Shown piece after piece: positions 9,133 to 26,430 of a DNA stretch of 26,430 nt (positions are counted from its first letter, which is position 1; the number at the start of each line of letters is the position of its first letter). This DNA is from a virus, in the IMG/VR virus record IMGVR_UViG_3300025949_000413, positions 1-26,430 of that record; one strand, written 5' to 3'. The translations under genes were made by a program, and so were the position numbers. Under the pieces are notes generated by a model, which was not told where the DNA came from, did not search any database, and saw nothing but the letters and a program-made list of their open reading frames with translations.

Positions 9133-9864
9133 ATGGCTGGTGAGAATTTCGAGCGCCAAGAAAATGGCATAACAAAAGCCGTCGATGGCGCATACCGCAA
9201 GAACAATAAGAAGCCAATCACATTGATCGCTGGTAAGGTCAAGGTGACTGGAGTCGTGAACGCAAACAAATACACCGGTCGCCAGGCTGGTGGTTCAGAA
9301 CCATACACCGATGTTGTAATCTCCCTACAAAACAAGAAACAATTAAACCTATCATGCAAGGGTGAGTCTGCACCTAGTCTTGCTGGTGGTGGATTGAAAG
9401 GAATCGAGCTAGCCATTCCCGGGCTGGCTCGATCTTTTTTTACCAAAGCACACGACCATCTTCTAAAAAACCTGAAGCTAAAAGCGGGTTCTAAGGTTCC
9501 GGATATCTATGGAAAAATCTCTCTAGAAGATAAGATGATCCTAGCAATTGGTAACAAGCAAATGGGTGGACCAATTGATTTTATGTATATTGGTCCTATG
9601 AATGTTGAGTCTAAATACGATGCAAAGACCGGTACTCTGACGCTGAATGGTAACCTGATTCCAGCAGACGAATTTGCAAGGACTCATGATCTATATTTCA
9701 GACTAAGAGCAAGAAGAATTGATCAAACATTTGATCCAAAAGCAGTTGATTCTAGTGGCACACCAAAAATCTACGGAAAGTCTCCATCAAAAGGTGACTC
9801 TGCTGGTAGACTTGTAGTAACAGATTCAGTTCCAAAAAATGCGGTCATAATCCAGATATCATGA
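9133..9864 (+). CDS. Conserved-type phage protein of unknown function containing an internal terminator
   Basis: This 243-residue protein starts at an ATG behind GGAGG (9117-9121). It is basic at the N-terminus (DGAYRKNNKK) and beta-rich, with the phrases VKVTGVVNANKYTGRQ, a SAPSLAGGGLKGIE segment (about 79-92) and GGPIDFMYIGPMNV (about 145-158), which look like family signatures. I recall similar proteins in marine T4-like phages without known function. It overlaps the next gene's ATG by 4 bases (ATGA). Codons 91-103 form a perfect intrinsic terminator at RNA level, described separately. A virion or packaged protein is possible from its place at the head of a late-type module. Confidence 0.75.
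   Translation: MAGENFERQENGITKAVDGAYRKNNKKPITLIAGKVKVTGVVNANKYTGRQAGGSEPYTDVVISLQNKKQLNLSCKGESAPSLAGGGLKGIELAIPGLARSFFTKAHDHLLKNLKLKAGSKVPDIYGKISLEDKMILAIGNKQMGGPIDFMYIGPMNVESKYDAKTGTLTLNGNLIPADEFARTHDLYFRLRARRIDQTFDPKAVDSSGTPKIYGKSPSKGDSAGRLVVTDSVPKNAVIIQIS
9403..9441 (+). terminator. Intrinsic (Rho-independent) terminator inside a coding gene
   Basis: The left arm ATCGAGCTAGCC (9403-9414) pairs with GGCTGGCTCGAT (9422-9433): 12 continuous pairs, one of them U-G, around the 7-base loop ATTCCCG. The stem is followed at once by C and seven T (9435-9441). This is textbook terminator geometry on the + strand, within codons 91-103 of the gene at 9133-9864. The minus strand lacks an equally good T run, so the signal is directional. 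Confidence 0.8.
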
Positions 9865-12041
9865 ATTTTCTGACGTTTCTAACAGAAGCCTCTGAAGGCA
9901 AAAACCTCCACCTAGAACACCTGGAAGATCAAATCTTCAATAAAGGTGTCGTGGGTGCGCGAGACTCTATTCTGTTCTTGAGAAGTCTCCGTGATATGCT
10001 CGCTGGTCATACACAAAATCCAATCTTCGTAACAACCAAGTTTGATGGGGCACCAGCTATTTTTGCCGGCATCAATCCAGACAACGGAAAGTTCTTTGTT
10101 GGTACAAAGAGTGTCTTTATTAAGAATCCAAAATTAAATTACACCGTAGAAGATATCGTAGCAAATCATGGCTCAATGCCTGGTCTTGTCAGAAAATTAA
10201 AGGTTGCACTTCAATATCTACCACAACTAGGAATAACTGGTGTCTGGCAGGGCGACGTTATGTTCACGCGAGAGGACCTGAAGGAAACTGTCATTGATGG
10301 TGAACAATATCTAACCTTCCAACCAAATACAATTGTCTATGCAGTTCCATTAGACTCTCAATTGTCTCGTTCAATGCAACGAGCCCAGATCGGTATTGTC
10401 TGGCATACTCAATATTCTGGTGATAAATTGTCTGATATGACAGCATCTTTTAAGCCAAATACAAATCAATTGAATCTTACACCTGATGTTTGGTATAGAG
10501 ATGCTAGGTTCATCGATGCATCCGGTGCTGCTACATTCACCGAAGCTGAAACCGCATATGTCACAAACCTATTATCGAATGCAGGAACACTATTTCAGAA
10601 GATGGATGGTGCGTTGTTAAATTACATTGCACAGAACAGCACAATCAAGACAGAAATAAAGACGTTCAATAACAGTAGAATCAAATCTGGCATTCCATTC
10701 ACGAATTCACATGATCATGTTGTAGCACTGATAAAATGGGTTGAGGATCGAGCAAACAAAGATATTTTAATCTCAAAGCAAGCACCGACCACTGTTAAGA
10801 GAGAAGGTGCAAAGACAGCCAAGTTCAAGTTCTACAGATCGAATTTTAATGGATTGGTTAGTATTTTTGACATGTTGAACTATATCCTAGCTGCGAAGCA
10901 TTTCATCATAAAGAAGCTTCAGACGGTTAAGGGGCTTGGGACTTTCTTGAGAACAGAAAATGGTTTTAAGGTTACCTCACCTGAAGGCTTTGTTGCAATC
11001 GACCATGAAGGAAAAGCACTGAAACTAGTTGATAGATTGGAATTCTCAAAGGCTAATTTTGCTGCAAACAAGAATTGGGATGAGGACTTTTATCTAGACG
11101 GAAATCTACCATTCCTGACAGAATCAGGACGCGGCGGTAAGGCTGCTGAGATTGCAAATGACTTAGGTCTTAAATACCTAGGATTTGGTCGCTATGGTAA
11201 CAAAGGGAAAGCAACTCACGAAGCAAATCCACTAAGAAGTAAACTCGTCAAGCTTAAGAAACCATTAGAACATGCTGGACATGTTGACTTCAAGGCTAAG
11301 AATATAAAGGCTAAGATTAAAGCAGTAGCTCTTAAATCTCTAAAAAACCAAAGCAACATCAAATATAAAACGGCTGCTGTGGTAAAAAGAGCTAATCTAG
11401 AACAACTAGAAAAAGAAACAAATGCGTGGATGGCAAAAGCTTCGAAGAAAGAAAAGGAAGCATTGAAAGAATATTCTGGTGAAGGCTATGAATATATTAA
11501 TGATGCCCTTTGGAGTGGCAGATACGACCCAAAGAAAGCCGGAAAAAAGAAGCCACCTGTTATACCAAAAATATCTGATTTTCCAAACTATGATGCTTAC
11601 TTTGCAGCCATGAAAAAATATTGGCGAGAGTTAGACGATTATCAAAGTGATTCTTCTGATATAATAAAAGCAATAGATGACGTTTTCAGCAAACACAAGA
11701 CAACTCAAGAATTGGTTGTCTATAGGTCTGTTTCAAAACGAGATAATTTGTCTAATATGAAACCTGGCGATGTGAAAGTTATGAAGGGATACACATCAAC
11801 ATCATTGGTTCCCGAAGTATCGTTGGAATTCAATGGTGATCCATCTCTGATTATCATACGAGTTCCAAAAGGATCAAAGGCGATCTATATGGGTGTCATT
11901 TCGCACCAAAAGCACGAAAACGAAATCTTATTGGCTCGCGGAGCTAAATTAAAAATGATCAGAAAAGAAGAAAGCAAGACAATGTATCAGTCTGATAGAA
12001 ATAGATACATCTTCGATTATATAGGCAACGATGACAAATAA
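9861..12041 (+). CDS. Ligase-like N-domain fused to Alt-like ADP-ribosyltransferase, probable head-packaged effector
   Basis: The product is 726 residues. The N-terminus MNFLTFLTEAS has a T4-style capsid-targeting look with LTE (7-9) as a prohead-protease site. Residues about 15-415 belong to an unknown family of marine T4-like phages (DUF6267, as I recall). They contain K60-F-D-G63 and GVWQGDVMF (127-135), which resemble motifs I and III of nucleotidyl-transferring ligases. A second LTE at 419-421 precedes a YLGFGRYG module (439-446). The C-terminal ART domain has EYSGEGYEYINDAL (537-550), R622 in VVYRS, TSTS (645-648) and E686-N-E688, the R-S-E set of arginine-type ADP-ribosyltransferases, with wording close to T4 Alt (EYVGSGYVDINNAL). 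It would modify host proteins using NAD+. The ART call is strong, packaging is inferred. Confidence 0.85.
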   Translation: MNFLTFLTEASEGKNLHLEHLEDQIFNKGVVGARDSILFLRSLRDMLAGHTQNPIFVTTKFDGAPAIFAGINPDNGKFFVGTKSVFIKNPKLNYTVEDIVANHGSMPGLVRKLKVALQYLPQLGITGVWQGDVMFTREDLKETVIDGEQYLTFQPNTIVYAVPLDSQLSRSMQRAQIGIVWHTQYSGDKLSDMTASFKPNTNQLNLTPDVWYRDARFIDASGAATFTEAETAYVTNLLSNAGTLFQKMDGALLNYIAQNSTIKTEIKTFNNSRIKSGIPFTNSHDHVVALIKWVEDRANKDILISKQAPTTVKREGAKTAKFKFYRSNFNGLVSIFDMLNYILAAKHFIIKKLQTVKGLGTFLRTENGFKVTSPEGFVAIDHEGKALKLVDRLEFSKANFAANKNWDEDFYLDGNLPFLTESGRGGKAAEIANDLGLKYLGFGRYGNKGKATHEANPLRSKLVKLKKPLEHAGHVDFKAKNIKAKIKAVALKSLKNQSNIKYKTAAVVKRANLEQLEKETNAWMAKASKKEKEALKEYSGEGYEYINDALWSGRYDPKKAGKKKPPVIPKISDFPNYDAYFAAMKKYWRELDDYQSDSSDIIKAIDDVFSKHKTTQELVVYRSVSKRDNLSNMKPGDVKVMKGYTSTSLVPEVSLEFNGDPSLIIIRVPKGSKAIYMGVISHQKHENEILLARGAKLKMIRKEESKTMYQSDRNRYIFDYIGNDDK

Positions 12042-13899: not shown

Positions 13900-14793
13900 A
13901 TGATGAGTGAAGAACAATTATTAACAGAAAAAGATGATGTGATTGTAGGGTGTATCACCAACTACGATTTCGCAGCCATCAAACCTTGGGTTAATTCCCT
14001 AGATTCTTGTGGTTTCTCAGGTAAGAAAGTCATGCTTTGTTACAACATCAAAGCAGACGTGATTGAAGAACTAAGACAAAGAAACTACACTGTCCTAGCA
14101 TTCAAGCTAGATGGTGATGGTAATGCGGTCTACAATGATGGCAAACCATTCTCCATTGTGGTTGAACGTTTCTTTCATATCTGGGCTATGTTAAATGTAT
14201 TGAAGGGAAAGTGTAGGTATCTTCTGCATACTGACGTAAAGGACGTGATATTTCAACGCAATCCCTCGGAATTCATCAATTATACGTTGGACAATGGTTC
14301 TAAGATCATTGCAGCCTCAGAATCCATCAAATATAAAGATGAAAACTGGGGTCGTGAAAACATCCGCCAAGCATACGGTGATGTTATATATGAGGCTCAC
14401 AAAGAAAATGTGATCGTGAATGCGGGAACTCTTTCTGGTGACTTCGACACAATGATCGATTTATTCCTGAATGTCTATATGGCTTCGGTTGGTGCTAGGA
14501 TTCATAATCCAGACCAAGCGGCTGTCAATATCTTATTATCAAAATCCCCATATAAGGAAGTTACATATGTCGCAGAGCCATGGACTGCATGGGCATGTCA
14601 GGCTGGTACGACAAATGATCCGACAAAAATAGGTGAATATAAATCAAAGCTAATTAATTTTACAGCAGCCGAGTCTTATTTGAATGATCTTGGCTCTATC
14701 TGCAATGGTCATGATGAACCGTTTTACATGGTGCACCAGTATGATAGAGTACCAGAATGGAAAAAACACGTTATGGAGAAATACGGAAAATGA
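13900..14793 (+). CDS. GT-A-type glycosyltransferase-like protein
   Basis: The 297-residue product opens with VIVGCITNYDFAAIKPWV, an N-terminal Rossmann-like segment. It carries LLHTDVKDVIFQRNP at about 108-122, where D112 and D115 form the DxD-like metal site seen in nucleotide-sugar transferases of the 'TDxxDVxFQ' type. VNAGTLSGD and NPDQAAVN (about 173-210) are further landmarks of that group. The start follows AAAGGAAATTAG; the ATG at 13903 is an equal alternative. It is the first gene of a nine-gene glycan island and ends with an ATGA overlap onto a methyltransferase. Sugar donor and acceptor cannot be told from the sequence. Confidence 0.75.
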   Translation: MMSEEQLLTEKDDVIVGCITNYDFAAIKPWVNSLDSCGFSGKKVMLCYNIKADVIEELRQRNYTVLAFKLDGDGNAVYNDGKPFSIVVERFFHIWAMLNVLKGKCRYLLHTDVKDVIFQRNPSEFINYTLDNGSKIIAASESIKYKDENWGRENIRQAYGDVIYEAHKENVIVNAGTLSGDFDTMIDLFLNVYMASVGARIHNPDQAAVNILLSKSPYKEVTYVAEPWTAWACQAGTTNDPTKIGEYKSKLINFTAAESYLNDLGSICNGHDEPFYMVHQYDRVPEWKKHVMEKYGK

Positions 14794-15368
14794 GAATTGA
14801 TAGAGTCCGAGAAATGAAGCAAGCTGGTACATGGAAGGATAGGTATATTTCAGCACCGGGGCTTGCACCAGAATACAAGAAATTAGGTGATTCTATAACA
14901 GGTATTGAAATTGGTGTTGCTGCTGGTGAGAACATTGTCTATATGTTGGATGAATGCGAAAACATCAGTAAGATATATGCAATCGATCCTTGGTTGCCAT
15001 ATACGGATTGCAATGGAACTGGTACTGAAGAAATTGTTGAGGCTTCATATGAAGTTTCATTAGACAATTTTTCTGATTATCCGGGAAGGGTTTCTGTGTT
15101 CAGAGTAACTTCGGATCAAGCTATGGTTCTATTTGAAGATGGTTCCGTTGACTACATATTTGTAGATGGAAATCATGACTATGAGTTTGTCAAAAACGAT
15201 CTATTGAATTATTATCCAAAGGTCAAAAAAGGTGGCTTAATAACAGGTCATGATCTTGGTTTGCCATCAGTTAACAATGCAATCAGAGATTTTGTGAAGA
15301 CATTGGATTATATTCCAAACATTCAGGGTGCCGCAAATGGTGCTTGGTTCTTCACCAAAGAAAGATAA
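14790..15368 (+). CDS. Class I SAM-dependent methyltransferase (Methyltransf_24-like)
   Basis: I place the start at ATG 14790 (ATGA overlap with the glycosyltransferase), giving 192 residues; the in-frame ATG at 14757 would add 11 residues inside the upstream gene. Motif I is GIEIGVAAG (38-46). A later VDYIFVDGNHDYEFVKNDL followed by VKKGGLITGHD is the acidic-motif and post-motif pattern of the class often found beside glycosyltransferases (cephalosporin hydroxylase / Methyltransf_24 group). It probably methylates a sugar or glycan hydroxyl, inferred from the neighbours. No target-recognition domain for DNA is visible, so DNA methylation is unlikely. Confidence 0.8.
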   Translation: MRIDRVREMKQAGTWKDRYISAPGLAPEYKKLGDSITGIEIGVAAGENIVYMLDECENISKIYAIDPWLPYTDCNGTGTEEIVEASYEVSLDNFSDYPGRVSVFRVTSDQAMVLFEDGSVDYIFVDGNHDYEFVKNDLLNYYPKVKKGGLITGHDLGLPSVNNAIRDFVKTLDYIPNIQGAANGAWFFTKER

Positions 15369-15370
15369 AG

Positions 15371-16354
15371 ATGAGAAAAAAACTATGCTTCGTGGTTCAT
15401 AGGTATCCACCATATGCCGGTGGTTCGGAATATTATGTCTGTGCAATGGCTGAAGAATGTGCCAGAAGAGGTTACGATGTTACTGTCTTCACTGGTGCGC
15501 ACCAGGGCGATAGAAATGGTGTCAAGGTCACCTCCGATGCTGCTATCTTCGATGGTATCAATCCATTTGACCTGATTGTCATTCATGGGGCTGACGTATC
15601 AGTTCAGAACTACGTTCTTATGAATCTACACAAAATAAAATGTCCATCGCTCTATATGGTTATTCTACCATCCGAGTCTGAAGCTGCCATGACAGGTCTT
15701 CGTGATGCTACATTCGTTGGTTGTTCTACTCAAGCAGATTTCAATCACGTAACAAAACATGGCCAACAAAACAAGATAATTTCAGTCAGGCACTCGATTC
15801 CAGACAAATTCGAGGATGTTCTTGGAACAGCCGGTGTTTTCAAGAAGACCATGAAAATCGAGACACCATATATGTTCCTTTCATCTGGTGGATTCTGGCC
15901 ACACAAGGGAATGGATGAACTAGCGCAGATATTTGAGGAATGCAAGAGAGATGATGTTACATTGGTCTTGACAGGCTATCAGAATCCAGAATTTGTGCCC
16001 TCTGAGCGAAAGAACGTTCGTTCTTTTATTTGTGATGATAGACAGGATGTTCTGAATGCACTAGCAGATGCAGATTTGTATATCATGAATTCTACTGTAG
16101 AAGGATTCGGTCTTGTCTTGTTAGAAGCAATGGCAAATAAAACACCATGGGTTTCAAGACACATTGCAGGTGCGGTTGAATTACAACAATATGGATTTAC
16201 ATACACCAAACCACAAGAGTTAAAGAACTTTATTCTTGACTTTATAGGTAAGGACGATGTAACCAATACCCTAGACATAAATCAAAACTATGTGAAGGAA
16301 CACCGTCAGATTGGCAACACAGTAGACGATATCGAAGCATGTTTCAAGAAATGA
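15371..16354 (+). CDS. GT-B glycosyltransferase, GT4 family
   Basis: The start is ATG 15371, just after the upstream stop; a TTG at 15344 is in frame but internal to the previous gene. The 327-residue enzyme has the N-terminal sugar-transferase opening FVVHRYPPYAGGSEYYV (7-23). The donor-domain hallmark is EGFGLVLLEAMA (244-255), the E-x7-E signature of GT4 retaining transferases. The segment FLSSGGFWPHKGMDEL (169-184) matches the usual beta-strand plus loop that opens the second Rossmann domain. It is slightly short for GT4 (usually 350-400). It probably adds a hexose to a surface or virion glycan. Confidence 0.88.
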   Translation: MRKKLCFVVHRYPPYAGGSEYYVCAMAEECARRGYDVTVFTGAHQGDRNGVKVTSDAAIFDGINPFDLIVIHGADVSVQNYVLMNLHKIKCPSLYMVILPSESEAAMTGLRDATFVGCSTQADFNHVTKHGQQNKIISVRHSIPDKFEDVLGTAGVFKKTMKIETPYMFLSSGGFWPHKGMDELAQIFEECKRDDVTLVLTGYQNPEFVPSERKNVRSFICDDRQDVLNALADADLYIMNSTVEGFGLVLLEAMANKTPWVSRHIAGAVELQQYGFTYTKPQELKNFILDFIGKDDVTNTLDINQNYVKEHRQIGNTVDDIEACFKK

Positions 16355-17001
16355 ATTTCACATTTGCGATCATAACAGATTGGTTGCACAAGGAAAGACT
16401 CTTTGAGATAGTCAACAATATAGAACATGTTGCTGGTCTAAGAAACTTTCAGGTCTTGGTGGTTGGTGGTCCGAGACAAGTTTGCGAAGACGAAGAAATT
16501 CTAGAATTTTCCTTTAATAAGATGTATCTTGAAATCATTCCGGCAGAAGATGAATGGATAACAACAAAGAAGAATACCGCAGCATGGCTAGCTAAGTACA
16601 ATAACATTGTCTTCATGCATGATTATTTTCTGCTGGATGATTATTGGTGGACTGGATACGAAGAATTTGGTGATGATTGGGATATTTGTAGCAATCCACA
16701 ATACCTGATGAATGGTAAGAGACATTTCACTGATTGGGTTACATGGGATTCGTCAATCTATCCAAGGTATACGTCATTAGATTATTGGAATTGGAATCAC
16801 ACTCGAAACCAATATATCTCTGGTGGTTATTTCCTGGCAAAGAGAAAAGTCTTGCTAGAAGAACCTTTCAATGCCGCAATGAGACCTGGACAACCAGAAG
16901 ATGTAGAATGGTCATTACGAGTGCGAGATAAGTATAAGATTAGATGTAATCCATATTCGATTGTACGACATAACAAGATTCACAGAGATTGCCATGACTG
17001 A
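16351..17001 (+). CDS. GT-A-type glycosyltransferase-like protein, 216 aa
   Basis: I favour the ATG at 16351 because it forms an ATGA overlap with the previous stop; ATG 16339 would add four residues. Landmarks are FAIITDWLHKERL near the N-terminus, FMHDYFLLDDYWW (88-100) as the acidic metal-site region, ISGGYFLAKRKVL, and PEDVEWSLRVRDKY with the ED acid pair expected before the acceptor helix. The pattern fits a small GT2-like transferase. Only about 216 residues leaves little acceptor domain. It overlaps the next gene by 8 bases. Confidence 0.7.
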   Translation: MNFTFAIITDWLHKERLFEIVNNIEHVAGLRNFQVLVVGGPRQVCEDEEILEFSFNKMYLEIIPAEDEWITTKKNTAAWLAKYNNIVFMHDYFLLDDYWWTGYEEFGDDWDICSNPQYLMNGKRHFTDWVTWDSSIYPRYTSLDYWNWNHTRNQYISGGYFLAKRKVLLEEPFNAAMRPGQPEDVEWSLRVRDKYKIRCNPYSIVRHNKIHRDCHD

Positions 17002-18373
17002 ACCTACTAAGCTAATAATCTTTGATCTAGATGGTGTTCTTCTAGACAGCAGAGAACTTCATTATATTGCATTGAACAAAGCACTGAAATTTCATGGACA
17101 ACAAGAAATAACAAAAGAAGAACATCTCTCGAAATATGATGGTTTGCCAACCAGAAAGAAATTGGAGATGCTTTCTAGTGAAAAGGGCTTGCCAACCAAC
17201 CTTCATGAAAAGGTGGCTGGCATGAAACAAATTTATACTGTTGAAGAATTCCAAAAGATACCACCAAATTCTTTTTTAACAAATATCTTTAGCATCCTAA
17301 AGAAACGTGGTTACAAACTTGGCGTTGCATCTAATTCAGTCAGAAGCACAGTAACAGTAGCCCTCTGCAAATTGGGATTAATGCAGTACATTGATGCATT
17401 TGTTTCAAATGAAGACGTTAAACACAGCAAACCATTTCCAGAAATGTATTGGCAGTGTATGACTAAATGTAAAGCACTTCCAAAGAACACTGTCATAATA
17501 GAAGACAGTCATATCGGTAGACAAGGTGCATTGGATTCGGGCGCACATTTAGTAGCAGTAGAAAATGTGGCTGATCTTGATTGGGGAAAAATTCAAGATG
17601 CAATCGATATCCTAGAGCATGTAAAGAGAAAACCAATTCCGTGGAGAAGTAAGAATATGAATATCTTGATTCCAATGGCAGGTGCTGGGTCTAGATTTGA
17701 AAAGGCCGGTTACACATTTCCAAAGCCATTGATCGAAGTGAATGGCAAACCAATGATTCAGGTTGTCCTAGAGAATTTAAACATCGAAGCACACTATATC
17801 TTTATCGTGCAGAAAGCACATTATGAAAAATACAATCTCCAATATCTGCTCAATCTTTTGGCTCCCGGTTGTGACATTGTGCAGGTGGACGGACTTACCG
17901 CCGGTGCTGCTTGTACAACTTTGCTTGCTCGTAACTATATTGACAACGATGCTCCTCTCGTCATCGCCAATTCTGATCAGTTCGTTGATTGGGATTCTAA
18001 TCAATGCTTGTATGCCTTTTCCGCTGATGGTATTGATGCAGGAATACTCACTTTCGAAGCCTCACATCCAAAATGGTCATATGCTAGACTTGATGCTGAT
18101 GGATTCGTAGCAGAGGTAGCCGAAAAAAAGGTTATCTCGAATCATGCGACTGTCGGAATTTATTATTGGAAGAAGGGTTCCGATTATGTCAGAAATGCAC
18201 TAAGGATGATAGAAGCCGAAGATAAGACAAATGGTGAATACTATGTTTGCCCTGTCTTTAATTATGCAATACAAGAAGGTAAGAAAATCAGAGTGAAAGA
18301 CGTGTCTGGAATGTGGGGACTAGGCACGCCAGAGGACCTTAATTATTTCCTACAGAATTATAAACATGAATAA
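16994..18373 (+). CDS. HAD phosphatase fused to sugar-1-phosphate nucleotidyltransferase
   Basis: The 459-residue protein joins two enzymes. Residues 5-215 are a HAD hydrolase: D11-L-D13-GV (motif I), ASNS (112-115, motif II), a K146 in HSKPFPE (motif III) and IIEDSHIG with E170/D171 (motif IV), plus a helical cap. Residues 222-459 are a GT-A nucleotidyltransferase: LIPMAGAGSRF (225-235), GYTFPKPLIEVNGKPMI and a later NSDQ metal site. The pair could dephosphorylate and then activate a sugar to its NDP form, or act on consecutive pathway steps. The start overlaps the preceding stop by 8 bases. It probably supplies the donor used by the neighbouring transferases; the sugar is unknown. Confidence 0.85.
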   Translation: MTEPTKLIIFDLDGVLLDSRELHYIALNKALKFHGQQEITKEEHLSKYDGLPTRKKLEMLSSEKGLPTNLHEKVAGMKQIYTVEEFQKIPPNSFLTNIFSILKKRGYKLGVASNSVRSTVTVALCKLGLMQYIDAFVSNEDVKHSKPFPEMYWQCMTKCKALPKNTVIIEDSHIGRQGALDSGAHLVAVENVADLDWGKIQDAIDILEHVKRKPIPWRSKNMNILIPMAGAGSRFEKAGYTFPKPLIEVNGKPMIQVVLENLNIEAHYIFIVQKAHYEKYNLQYLLNLLAPGCDIVQVDGLTAGAACTTLLARNYIDNDAPLVIANSDQFVDWDSNQCLYAFSADGIDAGILTFEASHPKWSYARLDADGFVAEVAEKKVISNHATVGIYYWKKGSDYVRNALRMIEAEDKTNGEYYVCPVFNYAIQEGKKIRVKDVSGMWGLGTPEDLNYFLQNYKHE

Positions 18374-19070
18374 TTTCTTCGCAAACGATACATCAGAATC
18401 TCATTACAGAGAATGGTGCCAAAAAAGAGTTAACTTCATTGTTGGCTTGTTTGGCACGGACTATTTTCAGAACAAGACTATTATAGAACTAGGCTGTGGG
18501 ATGGCGTTCGTTAGCGAAGAATTGCAGAAGCTAGGAGCAAAGGTGACAGTAGCGGATTGTAGAGAAAAAACACTTGAAGCTCTTACAGAACGCTTTGACG
18601 ATGTTGTGTTTTTAGATCAAGATAGTGATTGGTGCTTTGATAGAAAGTTTGATATTGTCCTCCACTGGGGTGTTCTGTACCACCTAAATAACTGGCAACA
18701 TGATTTATATAGAGTAAAGAAACACTTAATGCACGATGATTCCTTGCTATTACTAGAAGCTGAGGTGATAGACAGCGAGGATTGTGAGTTCGAAATAAAG
18801 GTCTTAGAAGACCCGATAATTTGGGATCAATCCTTATCGGGGATCGGTACAAGAACAAGTGCATCCAGAATAGAACATTGTTTATTTGATCTTGATATGG
18901 CATGGGCTCGTTTAGATGAAAACAAGCTTAATGTAGGTCAAGTTCATACATATGATTGGAAACATGATCCAATGACAACAATTGGAAAGCCTGACCATGC
19001 AGACAGAAATCTATATTCAAAGGGACAATTCAAGGAAGGTTTGAGAAGGTTTTGGATCGTATTAAAATAA
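18366..19070 (+). CDS. SAM-dependent methyltransferase
   Basis: This 234-residue protein begins 8 bases inside the preceding stop. Motif I reads IIELGCGMAFVS (39-50), followed by VTVADC (motif II acid), FDIVLHWGVLYHLNNW (about 94-109, motif IV region) and LMHDDSLLLLEAEV. This is a normal class I core with a substrate cap in its C-terminal 90 residues. The family resembles the small-molecule or sugar methyltransferases that accompany glycosyltransferases. No DNA-methylation motif (NPPY type) is present. It is the second of three methyltransferases in this island, suggesting a multiply O-methylated sugar or several substrates. Confidence 0.8.
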   Translation: MNNFFANDTSESHYREWCQKRVNFIVGLFGTDYFQNKTIIELGCGMAFVSEELQKLGAKVTVADCREKTLEALTERFDDVVFLDQDSDWCFDRKFDIVLHWGVLYHLNNWQHDLYRVKKHLMHDDSLLLLEAEVIDSEDCEFEIKVLEDPIIWDQSLSGIGTRTSASRIEHCLFDLDMAWARLDENKLNVGQVHTYDWKHDPMTTIGKPDHADRNLYSKGQFKEGLRRFWIVLK

Positions 19071-19082
19071 AGGAAATTTATT

Positions 19083-19898
19083 ATGCCACAATGTTGGATT
19101 TTGACGTTCAACCGACCAGCAGCACTGTCTAGACAAATCAAGACATGGGGTCGCGCAGGATATGATGTTCATGTGTTTAGCAACTACCCAAAGCTTCAAT
19201 ATGAAGATAATGAGACATTTGATCTAGTAAAGTCAGCACATTTCAATTCTCTCTCATATGAAGAATCAAATTCTTGGTGTGCTCGTTCTTGGAATTCAAT
19301 CTTTATTAAAGCCTTCATGAATGGTGCAGAGGATTCTGTATTCGTGCAGGATGATACCCAATGCGATAGTGATGTGCCAAAATTAGTCAATGATGCATCA
19401 AAAGATTTGGATTTTATCTGGGCGCCGGCGGGCGACCAATTTTTCTACATGAAAAAGAGGATTCTACGGAGAGTTGGATGGTTCGATGAACGATATCTGG
19501 GCTGTTATTGTGGAGACGCCGACTTTATGTATAGAGTCTGGAGATATCATAAAATTGGCAATTGTCTCGATTTGATATCAATAGAAGAATCTCATGATTG
19601 GGGATGGAATCATAATTCAATTGGTTTGAGTAAACATATACCAACGCATATTCAATCCAAGTGCATAGATGCATCATATGTAAATCAGCACGAAGAAATG
19701 GAAGCAAAGTTCAAGGTGAATAAAGTCTTGATCCATAGTCAAGGTCATTTCAAAAATAAGTGGGGTTTGCCTGGAAATGGTATAAATGGAATTGGTCCGT
19801 TGATAAATTGGACTCATGATAGGCTAATAAATGAAATAGACTGGTATCCTTGGTTTACTGAAAAATATCTAAATGGAGGCGGGAATTGGAATATCTAA
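19083..19898 (+). CDS. GT2-like glycosyltransferase
   Basis: The 271-residue product starts after an AAAGGAAA ribosome-binding site. CWILTFNRPAALSRQI (4-19) is the family 2 opening, followed by FVQDDTQCDSDV (87-98) with the DxD-type metal site, and GWFDERYLGCYCGDADFMYR (about 132-151) holding the acceptor-side acids. These fit an inverting GT2 fold. The remaining 100 residues are Trp- and Asn-rich, with no recognised domain. Its stop lies 11 bases beyond the unusual TTG start of the next gene. Acceptor unknown. Confidence 0.75.
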   Translation: MPQCWILTFNRPAALSRQIKTWGRAGYDVHVFSNYPKLQYEDNETFDLVKSAHFNSLSYEESNSWCARSWNSIFIKAFMNGAEDSVFVQDDTQCDSDVPKLVNDASKDLDFIWAPAGDQFFYMKKRILRRVGWFDERYLGCYCGDADFMYRVWRYHKIGNCLDLISIEESHDWGWNHNSIGLSKHIPTHIQSKCIDASYVNQHEEMEAKFKVNKVLIHSQGHFKNKWGLPGNGINGIGPLINWTHDRLINEIDWYPWFTEKYLNGGGNWNI

Positions 19899-20632
19899 GA
19901 ACTAATCATGATTTTTGGGATGGAATTGCAAAGAAATGGCAGCCTCATGGTGATGCTGTTAATCACGTTGTTGGCTGGTATGATGCACACAACAACTGGC
20001 CTGATTACGAAACAATCCTATTTGAAGGAATTGAAACAAAGGATAAAATAGCACTAGAATATGGTTGTGGACCTGGAAGAAACATCATTAAGTTCATGAC
20101 TGAGAAATGGGGCTTTGATGTGATTGACGGCGTTGATATTTCAAAGACAAACATAGTCAATGCATGGACTAATATTCAAGTCAGAGGTGACGATTATCTC
20201 TTGAGTAGACAGAAAAAACCAATGTTGTTCTACAATGATGGTTGCCATTTTTCTGGTACTGCTGTCTATCAGGACGGTTCTGAAGGTCCCGTAACAGCAA
20301 TTGATGGATTGTATGATGTTGTTTTCTCAGTCATTGCACTTCAACACATTCAAAGCCACAAGGCTCGCCAGACCATATTTGAAGAAGCATTTAGAGTCCT
20401 GAAACCGGGCGGTTGGTTTACAGCCCAGATGGGATTCGGTCCCGGGCACCCACGATCAGTTGACTATTTCAATGACGATCAACCACACATCGATGGTGAT
20501 GTAAGAGTAGAAAATGTAGATCATCTATGGCAGGATTTAGACAAAGCTGGTTTTTATGACATGCAATATTGTCTACGCCCGACAGTCCATGATGAACATC
20601 CTAACTGGATTTGGTTTAAGGTGCACAAATAA
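19886..20632 (+). CDS. SAM-dependent methyltransferase with TTG start
   Basis: The only well-supported start is TTG at 19886, because GGAGG (19875-19879) lies exactly 6 bases upstream and the first in-frame ATG is deep inside the fold. The 248-residue product has motif I ALEYGCGPGRN (56-66), VDISK (motif II region), LYDVVFSVIALQHI (motif IV region) and FRVLKPGGWFTAQM (post-motif). This class I pattern is complete. It overlaps the preceding glycosyltransferase by 13 bases. The likely substrate is again a sugar or lipid intermediate, inferred from position only. Confidence 0.82.
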   Translation: MEYLRTNHDFWDGIAKKWQPHGDAVNHVVGWYDAHNNWPDYETILFEGIETKDKIALEYGCGPGRNIIKFMTEKWGFDVIDGVDISKTNIVNAWTNIQVRGDDYLLSRQKKPMLFYNDGCHFSGTAVYQDGSEGPVTAIDGLYDVVFSVIALQHIQSHKARQTIFEEAFRVLKPGGWFTAQMGFGPGHPRSVDYFNDDQPHIDGDVRVENVDHLWQDLDKAGFYDMQYCLRPTVHDEHPNWIWFKVHK

Positions 20633-21186: not shown

Positions 21187-22755
21187 GTGGCAAAGATCAT
21201 CAAAACCTTTGGTGACTTCGTTGTTAACAATTTAACTGAAAATAACGAAGCTACCGACACCTTAGTTCTGACATATGGGCGCTTCAATCCGCCCACGACT
21301 GGTCACGAACTCCTAATCCGCAAAGTCAGAGAGATTGCAGAACATCGCCATGCTCTTTCGACAATCTTCGTAAGTCGCTCAGTAGATAAAACCAAAAATC
21401 CTCTTTCTGTGGAAGATAGAATTCACTATATCCACAAGATGTTTCCGAGTCAATCCGTAATGCCAGCCCATGAGGTTCAGGGAACAAGTGGGTTGCTAGG
21501 TGTCTTGAAATATATCTACAAGGAAGGTCACCTGGGCAAGAAAATCAACAATGTCTACATTGTTGTTGGTTCAGACAGAGTTCCTGAATTCACGAAAAAA
21601 CTAAATCAATATAATGGCAAAACATACAACTTCGACAAAATAGAAGTTGTTTCTGCTGGCGAGCGCGATCCAGACGATGAAGCTTCTGCGGCTGGAATGT
21701 CGGGAACCAAAATGAGAGCAGCCGCAATGTCTATGGATTTTGAAAAGTTTAGACACGGCATCTCAAAAACTATCTCTGATCAAGAAGCAAAAGAAATGAT
21801 GCAAAAGATCAGAAAAAATCTGTCAGTCAAGGAATCTTTTGACGATATAAACAAAAAGATTATGATCAAGGAAGGTGTTCATGATAAACCACTGTTCAAG
21901 TGTGTTTTCTTGATTGGTGGTACAGGTTCCGGGAAAGATTTCGTCCTGAGTAAAGTCTTGTTGGGACACGGTTTCATTGAGTCGAATCCAGATATCGCAC
22001 TAGAATATTTCATGGACAGGGAAAAACTGTCAAAGTCAATGCCAGAGGATGAGGCTGAGAAGAGGTATGTAATCAGAAGTAAGGCCATCAACCTAACAAA
22101 AAAGAAAAGAGAATATGCAATAAATGGTAGACTTGGTTTGATCATAAATGGAACTGGTGATAACTACCAACGATACGAAGAACTAAAGAAGGACCTAGAG
22201 AGCCTAGGCTATGAGTGCAAGGCTATTTTCGTAACAACATCAAATGAAGTCTCTAAGAAAAGAAACATCGAACGAGGTCAATTAGGTGGAAGAATGGTAC
22301 CGGAAAACGTCCGTGCAGTAAAGTGGCAAGAAACAATGAAGAACAAGGACAAGATAAAGTCTCTGTTTGGAGATAAGGATTTCATTGAATTTGACAACTC
22401 CGCTGACCTACGAAATGCAAACGCACAGATCAGAAAACAGAAGGGTGACGAATTGCTACGAATCTTCAAGGAAATGAGAAAGTTTGCCGAAAAGCCTCCA
22501 TCTTCGCCGATTGCACATCAATGGATAGAACACAACAGAAACAGAAAATCAGTATCAAAAACAAATGAAGCGTTTGATTCTTCTTTCAACCATTTGGATA
22601 ATGTCTTTGAGTCTTTGTTTCATGCGGGAAGTTCTAGCGAGCCCGTAATACACAAAATAGACAAGACAGTAAAGAAAATCAAAAAGAAGGGTGCAGCATT
22701 GGTACCTGTCATTATGATGAAAAAGAAAAAGAAACACATAATAAAGGACAGATAG
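21187..22755 (+). CDS. NMNAT/cytidylyltransferase-like domain fused to P-loop kinase, probable head cargo
   Basis: The GTG start gives 522 residues; an AGGA lies about 12 bases upstream and no better start is in frame. The N-terminus TFGDFVVNNLTENN looks like a capsid-targeting peptide with LTE at 16-18. Residues 25-215 form a HIGH-class nucleotidyltransferase: GRFNPPTTGH (31-40) and SGTKMR (172-177). Residues 236-400 are a kinase-type P-loop domain: GGTGSGKD (244-251), GLIINGTGDN and a KRNIERG lid-like segment. The order recalls NadR (NMNAT plus riboside kinase), though the kinase half looks closer to the zeta-toxin/polynucleotide kinase group. The C-terminus is strongly basic (KKIKKKG, MKKKKKH). 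Substrates unknown. Confidence 0.8.
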   Translation: MAKIIKTFGDFVVNNLTENNEATDTLVLTYGRFNPPTTGHELLIRKVREIAEHRHALSTIFVSRSVDKTKNPLSVEDRIHYIHKMFPSQSVMPAHEVQGTSGLLGVLKYIYKEGHLGKKINNVYIVVGSDRVPEFTKKLNQYNGKTYNFDKIEVVSAGERDPDDEASAAGMSGTKMRAAAMSMDFEKFRHGISKTISDQEAKEMMQKIRKNLSVKESFDDINKKIMIKEGVHDKPLFKCVFLIGGTGSGKDFVLSKVLLGHGFIESNPDIALEYFMDREKLSKSMPEDEAEKRYVIRSKAINLTKKKREYAINGRLGLIINGTGDNYQRYEELKKDLESLGYECKAIFVTTSNEVSKKRNIERGQLGGRMVPENVRAVKWQETMKNKDKIKSLFGDKDFIEFDNSADLRNANAQIRKQKGDELLRIFKEMRKFAEKPPSSPIAHQWIEHNRNRKSVSKTNEAFDSSFNHLDNVFESLFHAGSSSEPVIHKIDKTVKKIKKKGAALVPVIMMKKKKKHIIKDR

Positions 22756-22765
22756 AGAGAGAAAA

Positions 22766-24037
22766 ATGAAATACTGTGTCTATGATAAAGACGGCAAACA
22801 AGAAGGCGAATATGAATCACGCCGAGAAGCTACAAGGAAAGCCGCAGCAATCGGTGGCTCTTGGAAGAAGATCGGCAGCCATGTCATTGTTTCCAAGGAC
22901 CTACAGGAAAATCCAGCAATTGAAGCTGCACTAGAGTATGGTGTAGAATCACAGGAAGATAAACTGTGGCACGCACTTCCAAAGGAAGCAAGAAAAAAGA
23001 TCAAACATCTTGATCCTGTTAGAGTCGTTAAGCACACACCACACGTAGATAGAAGAATGGGTGTCGGCAAGGGTTTGACTCGCCTTGCAGCAAGAGGTTT
23101 AGACAAAGTTGTTGGTGAGGAGACTGCAATAAATGAGATATCAACAAAAGTCTTGAACAGCTATATTTTCCATGCAAGCAAGGAAGCAAAGTCAATGGCC
23201 ACAGCCCGTTCTGCACTTGTCAAAGCTGGTGGTGTCTCTAAACCAGAATATTATGTGACAAACTACAACGTCAAACCCAAATACCTAACAAAAAAGCTTC
23301 AAAATAGGGAAGCTGGTATTGAAAGAGCAATAAACAAAGTAGGGTCGCGATACCGTTATGCGAAAGCAGCAATGAAGGATGAATCTTTTGATGCACTACA
23401 GGAAACAAGCAAAGCAAAGCTATTCAGATATGTCTTTAGTGGCACAAAGAGCCTGAAGAAACTTGGCAAACGTGGTGGCGAATTGAATCGCCGCCATGAG
23501 GCGGGATATTCTGTTCCAGAACAAGAAGCTTCGGAAACATTTAGAAAGTTAAAGAACAGAATTGTTGGCATAACAATCGCAAAGAGTCGTCTATCCGGTG
23601 TGCCAACAGGTAAGGTCTTTCCAACTAAGCTGAAGGATAGAAAACAGCTAGGGCTTGCAAACAACATCGGTAAGGACATGAATGATGCTGTTAGGAATAA
23701 AAAGAAGCTAGATGAAACCTCAAAGTTTCGTGCTGCCTCCTATATTGTCAAGAAATCTGGTGGTTTCCTGAAACATATTGCAGGCGTAAATAGAAAGAAA
23801 CTGTTCAATGATCCGGGTGTCGTAAGGGCTGGTCTGACAATAGAAAGACCACATGGATTTGTACCAAGAAGAAATGCAGCTAGCAATGCAATCAAGCTAA
23901 GATCGGATCATATTGCTCGCGTCGATAGAGTCCTAAAATCAAAACAAACTATACCAGATAAGACAGAAGCTATTATTAGTTCAGCCCACAGGATGACAGA
24001 TTCAGTAAAACAAGCAGCCTACAAGAAAAAGACATAA
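22766..24037 (+). CDS. Basic repeat protein with LxE-type processing sites (internal head protein candidate 1)
   Basis: The 423-residue product begins after an AGAGAGAGAAAA site. Residues 1-42 form a small unit (YCVYDKDGKQEGEYESRREA) resembling a segment of the next protein. Then come three modules headed by INEISTKVLNSY (122-133), LQETSKAKLFRY (211-222) and LDETSKFRAASY (315-326). Each has the (L/I)xE cut signal, a short helix ending in Y, and a basic stretch; the first ends in NREAGIERAINK. The protein is very rich in K, R and A, as in DNA-bound internal head proteins of T4-like phages. No enzyme motif is seen. Cleavage by the prohead protease is inferred. Confidence 0.75.
   Translation: MKYCVYDKDGKQEGEYESRREATRKAAAIGGSWKKIGSHVIVSKDLQENPAIEAALEYGVESQEDKLWHALPKEARKKIKHLDPVRVVKHTPHVDRRMGVGKGLTRLAARGLDKVVGEETAINEISTKVLNSYIFHASKEAKSMATARSALVKAGGVSKPEYYVTNYNVKPKYLTKKLQNREAGIERAINKVGSRYRYAKAAMKDESFDALQETSKAKLFRYVFSGTKSLKKLGKRGGELNRRHEAGYSVPEQEASETFRKLKNRIVGITIAKSRLSGVPTGKVFPTKLKDRKQLGLANNIGKDMNDAVRNKKKLDETSKFRAASYIVKKSGGFLKHIAGVNRKKLFNDPGVVRAGLTIERPHGFVPRRNAASNAIKLRSDHIARVDRVLKSKQTIPDKTEAIISSAHRMTDSVKQAAYKKKT
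23129..23743 (+). repeat. Three LxE-IS repeat units in the 423-aa protein
   Basis: Unit heads start at 23129 (INEIS), 23396 (LQETS) and 23708 (LDETS), spaced 89 and 104 residues apart. All three place a Tyr 11 residues after the first residue of the tripeptide. The units are diverged at DNA level, so they are protein-level repeats. Confidence 0.7.
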
Positions 24038-24051
24038 AAGACATAAAGAAA

Positions 24052-25809
24052 ATGGCAAATAGAAAAATAATAAAAGAGGTAAACTACCAGACTTTGTTGC
24101 GTTATTACAACAAAGCATACAAGTCCGGTCTAAGCTTAAAGCGAGAACATGGCTTGACTCGTTTCATGAAGAAAGCGGCGCCAGATTATCCCGGCATTGA
24201 CGATACACTGAAATCGATCAAGCACAAGCTTGGTAGAAGATTAATGGGTGTAACGGCAGCCGAGTCTAGATTGGGTGGCACAAAACCATCAAAGAGAGTC
24301 GCAGACCATTTTGACCAGAAACATATGGATAGATTCCTGAAAAAGCAATTAGGAGAGGAAAATCTTCATGAAATCTCTGCTAAACTAGCAGCCAGATATC
24401 TAGTTCGTCGTGGCGTCATGAAGCTAGAGCCAAATACAGGCAGAATGATCATTCCATCAAAAGGATATGAATATGAGAAGAAAAAGGCAAATCAGTTTCT
24501 AGCTCAAAAGGACAGAAGGTCTCTAACTGATTATGAGAAAGCCCACATCAGAAAATTCAATAATGTAACAAAGGGGACAGAAAGAGCCCTAAAAAGAGTC
24601 AGCAAGGGAGCCAAATCAATGAATGATGTTAAGAGTAAACTATTTGCAGCCGAACGAGACAAACTAGCTGAAAATACAACAACAACAACTAGAAAGCCAT
24701 TGCACGAAATCTCAGCCAAATTGGCTGCAAGATATCTGGTCCGCCGCGGTGCTATCTTCGTTGATAGCAGGAAGAAATCTATCCGTTTCCCATCCCAACA
24801 ATATAATTACCTGGAAAAGAATGCACAACAAGCTGTCGAGAGAGCAAAGACTCGCGGCCATGCAACCCATTTCGAAAAAGAGACAATCAGAGCGCACAGA
24901 AAAGTAACAAAAGCCACAAACTATGCGATAAGAAAGATACACGATAAATATGCAGGACCTAATAAAACTGGTGGTATGGACAAAGTTAGAGATGTTCTAT
25001 TAGATGCTGAAAAGGAACGTCTAACTCATGCATTGTTAGTTGGCAAAACACCAACAATCAAGATGCAGGTCAAACATTATGCAAACAAACCAACCACGGT
25101 GCCACCAGAGGAATTGAACAAACCTAAGTTTAAGGACATTAGGAAGAAGGAACATGCAAGGGCGGAGAGAGATATGCCGCCTATCACGCATATCGAACCT
25201 GATGTTCCAACTCAGCATCACGTGGTTACAAGTGCAGGCCGTGTCATGTTTTCTGGATCACGTGACCAAGCACACAAGACAGCATTCAAGGTTGCTGGAA
25301 ATAGGACTGGGGCTGGCGCAGTAAAGGTTATCGAAACAAACCATCCGAAGGTCAAAGTCGGAGCAAGACTATCTTCTAGTGAAATAAAGGAACTGGAAAG
25401 AATGACAAAAAGAAGAAGCGGTGAAACAAATGAGTCTTTTCAGATTCAAGAATTGAGCAATGGCAAATTGATCAAGTATCTGGGTGCGTCTCTCAGAGAC
25501 AAAGCAAAAGCTACTGATATTAGAAATGCTGTTATGCAAAATACAAAACCATCTGCCTACACAAGGACTGTTTCTGGAGTTTTGTTGAAAAGGGTTAACA
25601 GAAGAACAAAAGGCGCAGAAAGAGCAATCACGAAACTAGAAAAACGCGGTGTCATGAAGACAGAGGAAGTCATGAAGCTAGATGAACTAGGACGTGGGAC
25701 ATTAATCAACTATGCAGTAAAAGCAGAGAAAGCATTTAGAAGTGGCGCAGACAAAAGGGCCCCGGGCTTAAAGAAAGTCATGGGGCTTCTAAGAAAGAAG
25801 GGTGTATGA
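24052..25809 (+). CDS. Basic multi-repeat protein with five LxE-type sites (internal head protein candidate 2)
   Basis: This 585-residue protein contains five unit heads: IKEVNYQTLLRYY (7-19), LHEISAKLAARYLVRRG (105-121), an identical LHEISAKLAARYLVRRG (217-233), IQELSNGKLIKYL (465-477) and LDELGRGTLINYA (543-555). Units d and e continue with a helical region and a TKGTERALKR / TKATNYAIRK closing motif; unit f closes with TKGAERAITK. Residues 388-436 (HHVVTSAGRVMFSGSRDQA and on) are a small alpha/beta insert like the N-terminus of the previous protein. It is strongly basic throughout. The start has only a weak AAAGAA site. The stop overlaps the next ATG (ATGA). Likely packaged with DNA and processed, by inference. 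Confidence 0.75.
   Translation: MANRKIIKEVNYQTLLRYYNKAYKSGLSLKREHGLTRFMKKAAPDYPGIDDTLKSIKHKLGRRLMGVTAAESRLGGTKPSKRVADHFDQKHMDRFLKKQLGEENLHEISAKLAARYLVRRGVMKLEPNTGRMIIPSKGYEYEKKKANQFLAQKDRRSLTDYEKAHIRKFNNVTKGTERALKRVSKGAKSMNDVKSKLFAAERDKLAENTTTTTRKPLHEISAKLAARYLVRRGAIFVDSRKKSIRFPSQQYNYLEKNAQQAVERAKTRGHATHFEKETIRAHRKVTKATNYAIRKIHDKYAGPNKTGGMDKVRDVLLDAEKERLTHALLVGKTPTIKMQVKHYANKPTTVPPEELNKPKFKDIRKKEHARAERDMPPITHIEPDVPTQHHVVTSAGRVMFSGSRDQAHKTAFKVAGNRTGAGAVKVIETNHPKVKVGARLSSSEIKELERMTKRRSGETNESFQIQELSNGKLIKYLGASLRDKAKATDIRNAVMQNTKPSAYTRTVSGVLLKRVNRRTKGAERAITKLEKRGVMKTEEVMKLDELGRGTLINYAVKAEKAFRSGADKRAPGLKKVMGLLRKKGV
24070..25716 (+). repeat. Five LxE repeat units in the 585-aa protein
   Basis: Unit heads begin at 24070, 24364, 24700, 25444 and 25678. 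The second and third encode the same 17 residues but differ in 12 of the 17 codons, all synonymously. The match is therefore held by selection on protein, not by a recent DNA copy. Confidence 0.75.
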
Positions 25810-26430
25810 GCGATAATAATAAAAACAAAAAACAATTGTCCGAAGTCTCAAGGGATTTGATTATCAGATACATGAAGGGAGCAATCCCATCATTGGAAAA
25901 GAACTATCGCCAAGTAGATAGATTCACCGCAGGTGGTGGTCTAAAAGGTCGAATTCCGCCGCACATTGAGATTGCCTCTAGAAAAGTCGCAACTCGTTCC
26001 GTTGGTCTCCAAGTTGCTGGTGCAAAGCTTAGGGGAGCAAAGCCTGGCAAGACATATGCAAATATCAGAGACACTGAAGGAATGGACCAACACATCAACA
26101 AAAAAGCAGCAAACGAACAGGTTGAAAATCTAGACGAAATCTCTGGAAAACTAGCATCACGCTATCTATTCAAGAGAGCATTGTGGCATGGAACACCAAC
26201 AGGTGTCATGAACACAATGAAGTCTGCTAGTTCGCTTGCAAAAAACACACTGAAACACGGAAGCCTAGAGAAAGGGTACAGGTCCTCACTGAAGACTTCA
26301 CCCGCATCCAGAAAAGCGCTTAAAATAAACCACGGGATGGTTAGAGCCCAAGAAATCGTAGCCAAGAAAGGGAGCCAGATGAAAGAAGAAAATGACATTG
26401 TTTCTATCCAAGAAGGTGAAATGAGTAGAA
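25806..26430 (+). CDS. Third basic repeat protein, 3' end outside window (internal head protein candidate 3)
   Basis: The ATG of the ATGA overlap at 25806 opens a frame that stays open to the window's end (208 residues visible). It begins MSDNNKNKKQLSEVSRDL and carries LSEVSRDLIIRY (11-22), LDEISGKLASRYLFKRA (109-125) and IQEGEMSR (201-208). These fit the same unit head as the two upstream proteins; the second is closest to the LHEISAKLAARYLVRRG pair. Composition is again Lys/Arg-rich. It completes, or continues, a tandem family of paralogous genes. No enzymatic motif is visible. Confidence 0.75.
   Translation, partial: MSDNNKNKKQLSEVSRDLIIRYMKGAIPSLEKNYRQVDRFTAGGGLKGRIPPHIEIASRKVATRSVGLQVAGAKLRGAKPGKTYANIRDTEGMDQHINKKAANEQVENLDEISGKLASRYLFKRALWHGTPTGVMNTMKSASSLAKNTLKHGSLEKGYRSSLKTSPASRKALKINHGMVRAQEIVAKKGSQMKEENDIVSIQEGEMSR
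25836..26430 (+). repeat. LxE repeat units in the last partial protein
   Basis: Unit heads start at 25836 (LSEVS), 26130 (LDEIS) and 26406 (IQEGE), spaced 98 and 92 residues apart, close to the spacing in the 423-aa protein. The last one is cut off by the window edge. Confidence 0.65.

Follow-up and report, generated by a model that had tools for sequence, protein, structure and literature searches.

Tandem basic proteins of a T4-like phage built from a repeated hairpin unit with a gp21-type head: likely precursors of prohead peptides

The virus record IMGVR_UViG_3300025949_000413 of IMG/VR, complete at 26,430 bases and hereafter called the window, is a fragment of a T4-like phage that ends in three consecutive open reading frames (ORFs), A, B and C, which encode an array of basic proteins built from one repeated unit. 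The unit has two parts, a head of the form (L/I)xE and a predicted helical hairpin, and belongs to a large family with an invariant head glutamate whose members include gp22 and gp67-like core genes that carry the same sites. A, B and C are likely to be prohead-core or internal head proteins, that is, precursor chains that the prohead protease gp21 would cut into basic hairpin peptides.

The array in ORFs A, B and C

ORF A (22766..24037) encodes 423 residues with an isoelectric point (pI) of 10.2 and holds three units; ORF B (24052..25809) encodes 585 residues with a pI of 10.4 and holds five; ORF C (25806..26430), open at the contig end, encodes at least 208 residues with a pI of 10.2 and holds two units and a possible third head. 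All three, and all of their units, lie on the + strand. An earlier note, made from the letters of this DNA, had described three consecutive basic genes with (L/I)xE-headed units, and the ORFs are as it described them: a profile built solely from other phages, with the window sequences excluded, matches A, B and C with E values of 6.1e-14, 1.8e-10, and 1.4e-7, respectively, while all other window ORFs have E > 1. The best single unit reaches 31 bits with this profile, versus a top score of 8.3 bits among 600 shuffled proteins.

The same note had counted eleven heads, ten of them followed by a short helix. The ten helix-bearing heads stand, each with a tyrosine exactly 9 residues past the glutamate (10/10) and each fitting (L/I)xE, the T4 gp21 cleavage motif. 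The eleventh (IQE/G in IQEGEMSR, 26406..26414; here and below a slash marks the predicted cut) runs into the contig end. The pattern (L/I)xE-(I/V/L/T/G) in fact has 12 matches, three in A, six in B and three in C, the additional one being IKELERM at residue 445 of ORF B, which has no helix motif. Outside the units, (L/I)xE is found at four further places (A46; B100, B205, B445).

In ORF A, unit 1 (23129..23338) reads INE/ISTKVLNSY ... NREAGIERAINKV and scores 31.3 bits with the window-free profile, while unit 2 (23396..23596; LQE/TSKAKLFRY ... NRIVGITIAKSRL) scores 17.5 bits. Unit 3 is represented by its head and helix 1 (23708..23758; LDE/TSKFRAASY; 3.1 bits), the second half having diverged with the Glu-Tyr spacing kept. 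ORF B begins with an N-terminal unit 1 (24070..24273; MANRKIIKE/VNYQTLLRYY ... RRLMGVTAAESRL; 10.4 bits), whose site after residue 9 coincides with the position of the T4 capsid-targeting leader cut. Unit 2 (24364..24606; LHE/ISAKLAARYLVRRG ... NVTKGTERALKRV) aligns with the other units and has the second conserved block, and unit 3 (24700..24939; LHE/ISAKLAARYLVRRG ... KVTKATNYAIRKI) is its duplicate. These two share the stretch LHEISAKLAARYLVRRG, in which 14 nucleotide differences over 17 codons, counted from the sequence, produce zero amino-acid changes; the head and first helix are therefore under purifying selection. Unit 4 (25444..25644; IQE/LSNGKLIKY ... RRTKGAERAITKL) scores 24.7 bits, and the short, C-terminal unit 5 (25678..25806; LDE/LGRGTLINY) scores 9.1 bits. 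ORF C again opens with an N-terminal unit 1 (25836..26030; MSDNNKNKKQLSE/VSRDLIIRY ... TRSVGLQVAGAKL; 11.9 bits), followed by the head and helix 1 of unit 2 (26130..26177; LDE/ISGKLASRYLFKR; 8.1 bits).

The head motif alone is modestly above chance, with 3 occurrences versus 0.95 expected in A (p 0.07), 6 versus 1.5 in B (p 0.003), and 3 versus 0.5 in C (p 0.013). The head plus the tyrosine is far above chance in every one of the three (p <= 0.0015 per ORF). The weak excess in ORF A would fit common basic proteins of low complexity in which LxE occurs by chance, but the window-free profile scores, the size of the family, its invariant positions and a confidently predicted fold refute that explanation and leave it a negligible probability.

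A two-part unit with a predicted hairpin fold

The full unit consists of an acidic linker, [LIV]xE, helix 1, a loop of variable length, and helix 2 (RxxGIxxAxxKL). The head and short helix had been recognized from the window alone, and the second block, exemplified by NREAGIERAINKV and RRTKGAERAITKL, had been overlooked. When the window units are aligned with their relatives, the glutamate and the tyrosine are invariant and the second conserved block follows the variable loop; in A, B and C this block, as RxxGxxxA, is detected in 7 of the 10 units. AlphaFold2 predicts a typical unit to be a helical hairpin with helices at residues 12-38 and 42-71, where the predicted local distance difference test score (pLDDT) exceeds 90, and it places the glutamate, residue 9, in coil. 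Unit 1 of ORF A attains the same two-helix layout at lower confidence, with INE in coil ahead of helix 1.

Among 138 distinct hairpins collected with a hairpin model that lacks the head, all 138 keep glutamate at P1, and P3 is exclusively L (67), I (45) or V (26); across the family, P3 is L or I in 81% and V in 19%. The two parts also differ in charge: 131 of 133 hairpins are positive (mean +7.2), whereas 189 of 197 linkers, taken as 12 residues, are negative (mean -3.6).

A sequence search of the PDB with the unit gave no match, and a fold search returned only generic helical bundles (rubrerythrin and ferritin, for example) above E 0.6, which is meaningless for a two-helix hairpin. Neither PDB search revealed similarity of the unit to any solved DNA-binding protein. 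Against viral models, the top fold matches come from phage proteins that are uncharacterised and share 36-51% of their residues with the unit.

Family size and spread

ORF B used directly as a query matched none of 50,697 phage records and no viral contig, and all 18 units searched together yielded no conserved stretch to search with. The family first surfaced by tblastn with a unit consensus, a lead that the actual matches confirm. These comprise four units in gp064 of Caulobacter phage Cr30, units in the cyanophages P-TIM68, S-SKS1, and BUCT-ZZ01 and in a marine single-cell virus, and one unit each in P-SSM4 (in P-SSM4_160, of T4-GC119) and P-RSM6. The unit-bearing isolate proteins are Cr30 gp064, P-TIM68 AIR93496, S-SKS1 SWZG_00082, and BUCT-ZZ01 UTS52006. 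HTVC008M and Melnitz have the syntenic locus and no units in it, and there is no clear unit in S-SM1 SSM1_191 and SSM1_192 or in the S-CREM2 and S-CRM01 proteins tested.

A pattern scan of IMG/VR brought out a family with at least 510 confirmed loci among the 600 pattern matches listed. The scan pattern did not include the unit head, and conservation of the head is therefore not a selection effect. The 80 loci read in detail contain 200 units in 108 ORFs, with a maximum of five per protein, and chains of the L090 type consist almost entirely of units. Among 84,980 prokaryote genomes, the sole match is a phage contig. Among the library families, phrog_5709 ("unknown function", from Cr30 gp064) alone is modelled on a protein with clear units; the unit itself is undefined in Pfam, PHROGs, and the PDB, and no description of it was found in the open-access literature.

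Gene settings

Unit proteins occur in two gene settings. In setting 1 (~20 loci), the order is TerL-sheath-tube-portal-[UNIT]-gp21-gp22-MCP (MCP, major capsid protein), an order that the prokaryote-derived phage contig shares. The unit protein here occupies the position of T4 gp67/gp68, and relatives with units in this head operon carry gp21 adjacent. Matches to scaffold families of PHROGs and Pfam, with E values as low as 1e-76, prove that in several phages units are fused into the gp22 scaffold itself: L022:9608-11479 combines three units with phrog_237 (head scaffolding; 3.7e-59) and T4_CASP (Pfam; 7e-53), and an ORF of L056 combines two units with phrog_237 (1e-76) and T4_CASP (2e-68). The gp67 relation of unit proteins is weaker (phrog_1064 at ~0.003, plus blastp to Melnitz). 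One protein in the gp67 position is BUCT-ZZ01 UTS52006 (L007:11800-12171), which is annotated as hypothetical, lies directly upstream of gp21, and has 123 residues with one C-terminal unit. The gp22- and gp67-like fusions are confined to some relatives, and phrog_237, T4_CASP, and phrog_1064 have no match in A, B and C.

Setting 2 has the order helicase - DUF6267 - cytidylyltransferase - [unit protein] - S-layer-like gene - primase - ribonucleotide reductase. The window represents this second arrangement, with a fused cytidylyltransferase and Zeta-toxin-like kinase gene (21187..22755, + strand; Pfam CTP_transf_like 2.6e-10, Zeta_toxin 2.3e-13) immediately upstream of ORF A. The cytidylyltransferase gene marks the conserved locus, and units come after it in P-TIM68, Cr30, and many IMG/VR loci.

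Setting 1 bears on an alternative in which the unit serves to pack the prohead core: the hairpins bind each other or gp22 and shape the core, being cut so that the debris exits through the shell before DNA entry and carrying a basic charge that only balances the acidic scaffold. Units do lie in gp22 and gp67-like proteins, and in T4 the counterparts of these proteins are broken down and for the most part expelled; acidic linkers with basic hairpins would also suit pairing within the core. However, the units of the window locus are part of long, basic proteins encoded outside the core operon and beside genes with virion-retained products, and other basic modules, such as the AT-hook-like GRGRPPK, come after the same header. 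This core-filling role is a serious contender, if one that we would not bet on.

The unit head as a probable gp21 cutting site

T4 gp21 cleaves after (L/I)-x-E, and gp22, gp67, and gp68 are chopped into peptides (PMC9026906; PMC9958956). The capsid proteins of 13 relatives have an [LI]xE site at the expected place in their N-terminal regions (residues ~45-65; picked by eye), with A, T, N or D as the next residue, so that the proteases of these phages seem to be specific for LxE. Furthermore, the header (K)EEVE.[LIV]DE stands ahead of unrelated small domains 83 times versus 20 expected; it therefore acts like a signal distinct from the fold and travels independently of the hairpin. In a 64-residue protein of L075 (MLTFSEYLTE/LSKRTLNTY...), a T4-type capsid-targeting leader is fused directly to one unit such that the glutamate at which the leader is cut is the unit glutamate. 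With the invariance of the glutamate and its predicted place in coil, these observations make cutting by gp21 after the unit glutamate a well-supported prediction. Counts of LxE on their own are not discriminating, for the enrichment is 1.9x in gp22, 1.7x in unit proteins, and 1.6x in cytidylyltransferases, yet 2.5x in gp21 and also present in some tail genes.

The domains that follow an acidic [LIV]xE header include AT-hook-like segments (GRGRPPK/ARGRPKK), DUF3008, and a possible zinc ribbon (L030, L025, L048, L084, L090). The proteins concerned look like mosaics of small modules parted by cut sites.

The glutamate could instead be structural, with the conserved [LIV]xE-[LIV]S of a folded repeat capping helix 1 and the proteins remaining intact as DNA-binding or assembly proteins. 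Consistent with such a role, every unit has a hydrophobic P1', which capsid proteins do not, V is tolerated at P3, and the glutamate is as invariant as the tyrosine, arginine, and glycine of the fold. Yet AlphaFold2 puts this glutamate in coil, outside the hairpin, the header stands before other domains four times as often as expected and in L075 falls on the very site where the leader is cut, and the protease would have access to any LxE in a gp22- or gp67-type protein whose gene neighbours gp21. A purely structural glutamate is accordingly improbable.

Targeting leaders, virion proteins, and neighbouring genes

Leaders of the targeting type are common among neighbours of the units, being present in 15 of 18 DUF6267 proteins, 17 of 51 cytidylyltransferases, and 3 of 7 kinases versus a background of 94 of 1951 ORFs. 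The DUF6267 leader follows the pattern M..F..[FY][LIF]xE (loci L003-L091 and the window gene at 9861), and this family is probably packaged in the head. The targeting-leader pattern also matches UvsX by chance (6 of 11), and single leader matches are therefore weak. ORFs B (MANRKIIKE/) and C (MSDNNKNKKQLSE/) have a site near the N-terminus that does not show the aromatic pattern of T4 leaders.

Mass spectrometry has detected the cytidylyltransferase in S-SM1 virions (PMC3037559). In S-CREM2 virions, it identified the cytidylyltransferase, the products of the next two genes, and gp160 of the same locus (PMC10665884). Because of these virion data on neighbours and the common targeting-type leaders, the cytidylyltransferase locus can be said to encode cargo that enters the head, and the same may be supposed of A, B and C by way of their relatives and their place in the locus. 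By eye, S-CREM2 gp160 (L095), P-TIM68 AIR93496 (L008), and P-SSM4_156 (L092) have in common the modules CWxGYxxxGxK...NC and KDACYxKVKxxxxVWPSAYASGxLVxCR.

The leaders lend themselves to a further explanation, in which the unit, or just its head, acts as a T4 capsid-targeting sequence placed inside the chain: it would bring cargo into the core and then be cut to release it, the other small domains being a payload injected into the host. The direct joining of a T4-type leader to a unit in L075, the units that start at the N-terminus in Cr30, L082, and ORFs B and C, the leaders on neighbouring DUF6267, cytidylyltransferase, and kinase proteins, and the two small modules that the virion protein gp160 shares with the P-TIM68 unit protein all speak for it. 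Nevertheless, L090-like chains are nearly all units, with little else to deliver, and five-fold repetition is needless for a tag. On balance, a targeting and release tag is less likely than not.

The window also encodes two adjacent ADP-ribosyltransferase proteins (9861-12041 and 12031-13869) that have in common a module (GLKYLGFGRYGNKGKATHE and GLEYLGFGYWGRNHIATHK) and the transferase domain (blastp 7e-20). The first of these (9861..12041, + strand) is fused to DUF6267 and begins with the T4-like capsid-targeting N-terminus MNFLTFLTE/A, and it may therefore be a head-packaged, Alt-like enzyme. The order helicase - DUF6267 - cytidylyltransferase, otherwise conserved, is interrupted here: after the ADP-ribosyltransferases and before the cytidylyltransferase comes an insertion (13900-20632) of glycosyltransferase, methyltransferase, and HAD/nucleotidyltransferase-like genes. 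Farther upstream, the gene at 1272-3863 codes for a T4/cyanophage-type DNA polymerase that shares ~45% identity with the polymerases of cyanophages and marine viruses; other window genes read as UvsX- and gp41-like replication genes, as judged by blast of related loci to them.

Proposed mechanism

In the favoured reading, A, B and C would be precursor chains in which each unit comprises an acidic flexible linker ending in (L/I)xE and a basic helical hairpin of ~60-90 residues. The chains would be laid into the prohead core, an acidic protein core, and activated gp21 would cut after each glutamate, converting ~1,200 precursor residues into roughly ten basic peptides. The predicted products are peptides of 89, 104, and 106 residues from A (net charge +9, +16, and +17), of 93, 100, 228, 78, and 40 residues from B (+12, +15, +24, +11, and +9), and of 98 and 92 residues from C (+7 and +11). 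The cut peptides would then stay with the incoming DNA or help to accommodate it. DNA binding by the peptides is plausible on the basis of charge and is the weakest step.

The earlier note had read the array as a polyprotein series chopped by gp21, and had suggested a nucleoprotein packaging kit or a carrier of several injected peptides; either of these roles may hold in place of a core filler that is cut and expelled. Its placement among T4-type head-interior proteins stands, as do heads that behave like gp21 sites (units in gp22, in gp67-like genes, and behind a leader); cutting in vivo and retention in the head are steps that we infer. A wider version of the idea would see a mobile "cut-here hairpin" spreading among the head genes of environmental T4-like phages, whether these encode scaffold, core, or cargo proteins. 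The protease would free from them, in each head, a mixture of basic peptides that serve as DNA counter-charge or condensers and are injected with the genome, and the whole would amount to a polyprotein processed within the phage capsid. We put this forward tentatively, as a possibility rather than an expectation.

Several observations weigh against the precursor reading. P1' is L, I or V in units, not alanine, and A, T, N or D in capsid proteins, and the 19% of units with V at P3 fall outside the T4 rule; the sites are therefore perhaps cut poorly, or the glutamate is structural. Unit 3 of A, units 2, 3, and 5 of B, and unit 2 of C are diverged and score weakly, and ORF A has no recognisable targeting leader. 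The gene for gp21 is not in the window, itself a 26-kb fragment. Head entry of A, B and C rests on relatives and locus position, and no proteomics for a unit-bearing protein was found in the open-access literature. Lastly, the cut core peptides of T4 mostly leave the head (PMC9026906; PMC9958956), and retention and DNA binding therefore need not follow.

The fate of the peptides determines what the unit would mean. If they stay with the DNA, T4-like phages would have a histone- or protamine-like step achieved by proteolysis; if they leave, the unit would be a building block that prohead cores can reuse. In both cases, hundreds of proteins of environmental T4-like phages that are now called "hypothetical" would gain a place and a testable role. 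One unnamed unit, present in at least 510 loci, connects the scaffold with core and internal proteins, and exact new N-termini are predicted from it.

Comparison with known systems

T4 head maturation is a textbook case. The T4 proteins gp22, gp67, and gp68 resemble the unit proteins in their compartment, as judged by gene position and the gp22 fusion, in their (L/I)xE sites, and in the several cuts per protein. They differ in that the units are a discrete, conserved, repeated basic hairpin found in several unrelated genes of the same phages, and neither a gp22 nor a gp67 domain is present in A, B and C. The T4 internal proteins IPI, IPII, and IPIII and the enzyme Alt have a leader ending in (L/I)xE near residue 10, which is matched by the N-terminal units and by neighbours in the window locus, and the ADP-ribosyltransferases near the array add to the likeness. 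From the IPs, however, a single short leader is removed, and from Alt a C-terminal piece as well, whereas the unit site recurs along the chain.

In phiKZ and SPN3US, large internal head proteins, some of them DNA-associated, are matured by a gp21 homologue at S/A-x-E (PMC9026906). The ejection and inner-body proteins of these phages are thus alike in being large internal head proteins matured by such a homologue, and unlike in the motif; a repeated unit is not described there, and a sequence relation was not found. PHROG 5709, with the four units of Cr30 gp064 right after the cytidylyltransferase, is the closest catalogued family, although it models one whole protein and not the unit.

The compartment, the protease, and the motif are already known from T4, and the array would represent multi-site gp21-type substrates of a T4-like head. 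What is new is that a repeated hairpin has been defined, that it extends across scaffold, core, and setting-2 locus proteins, and that its family is so large.

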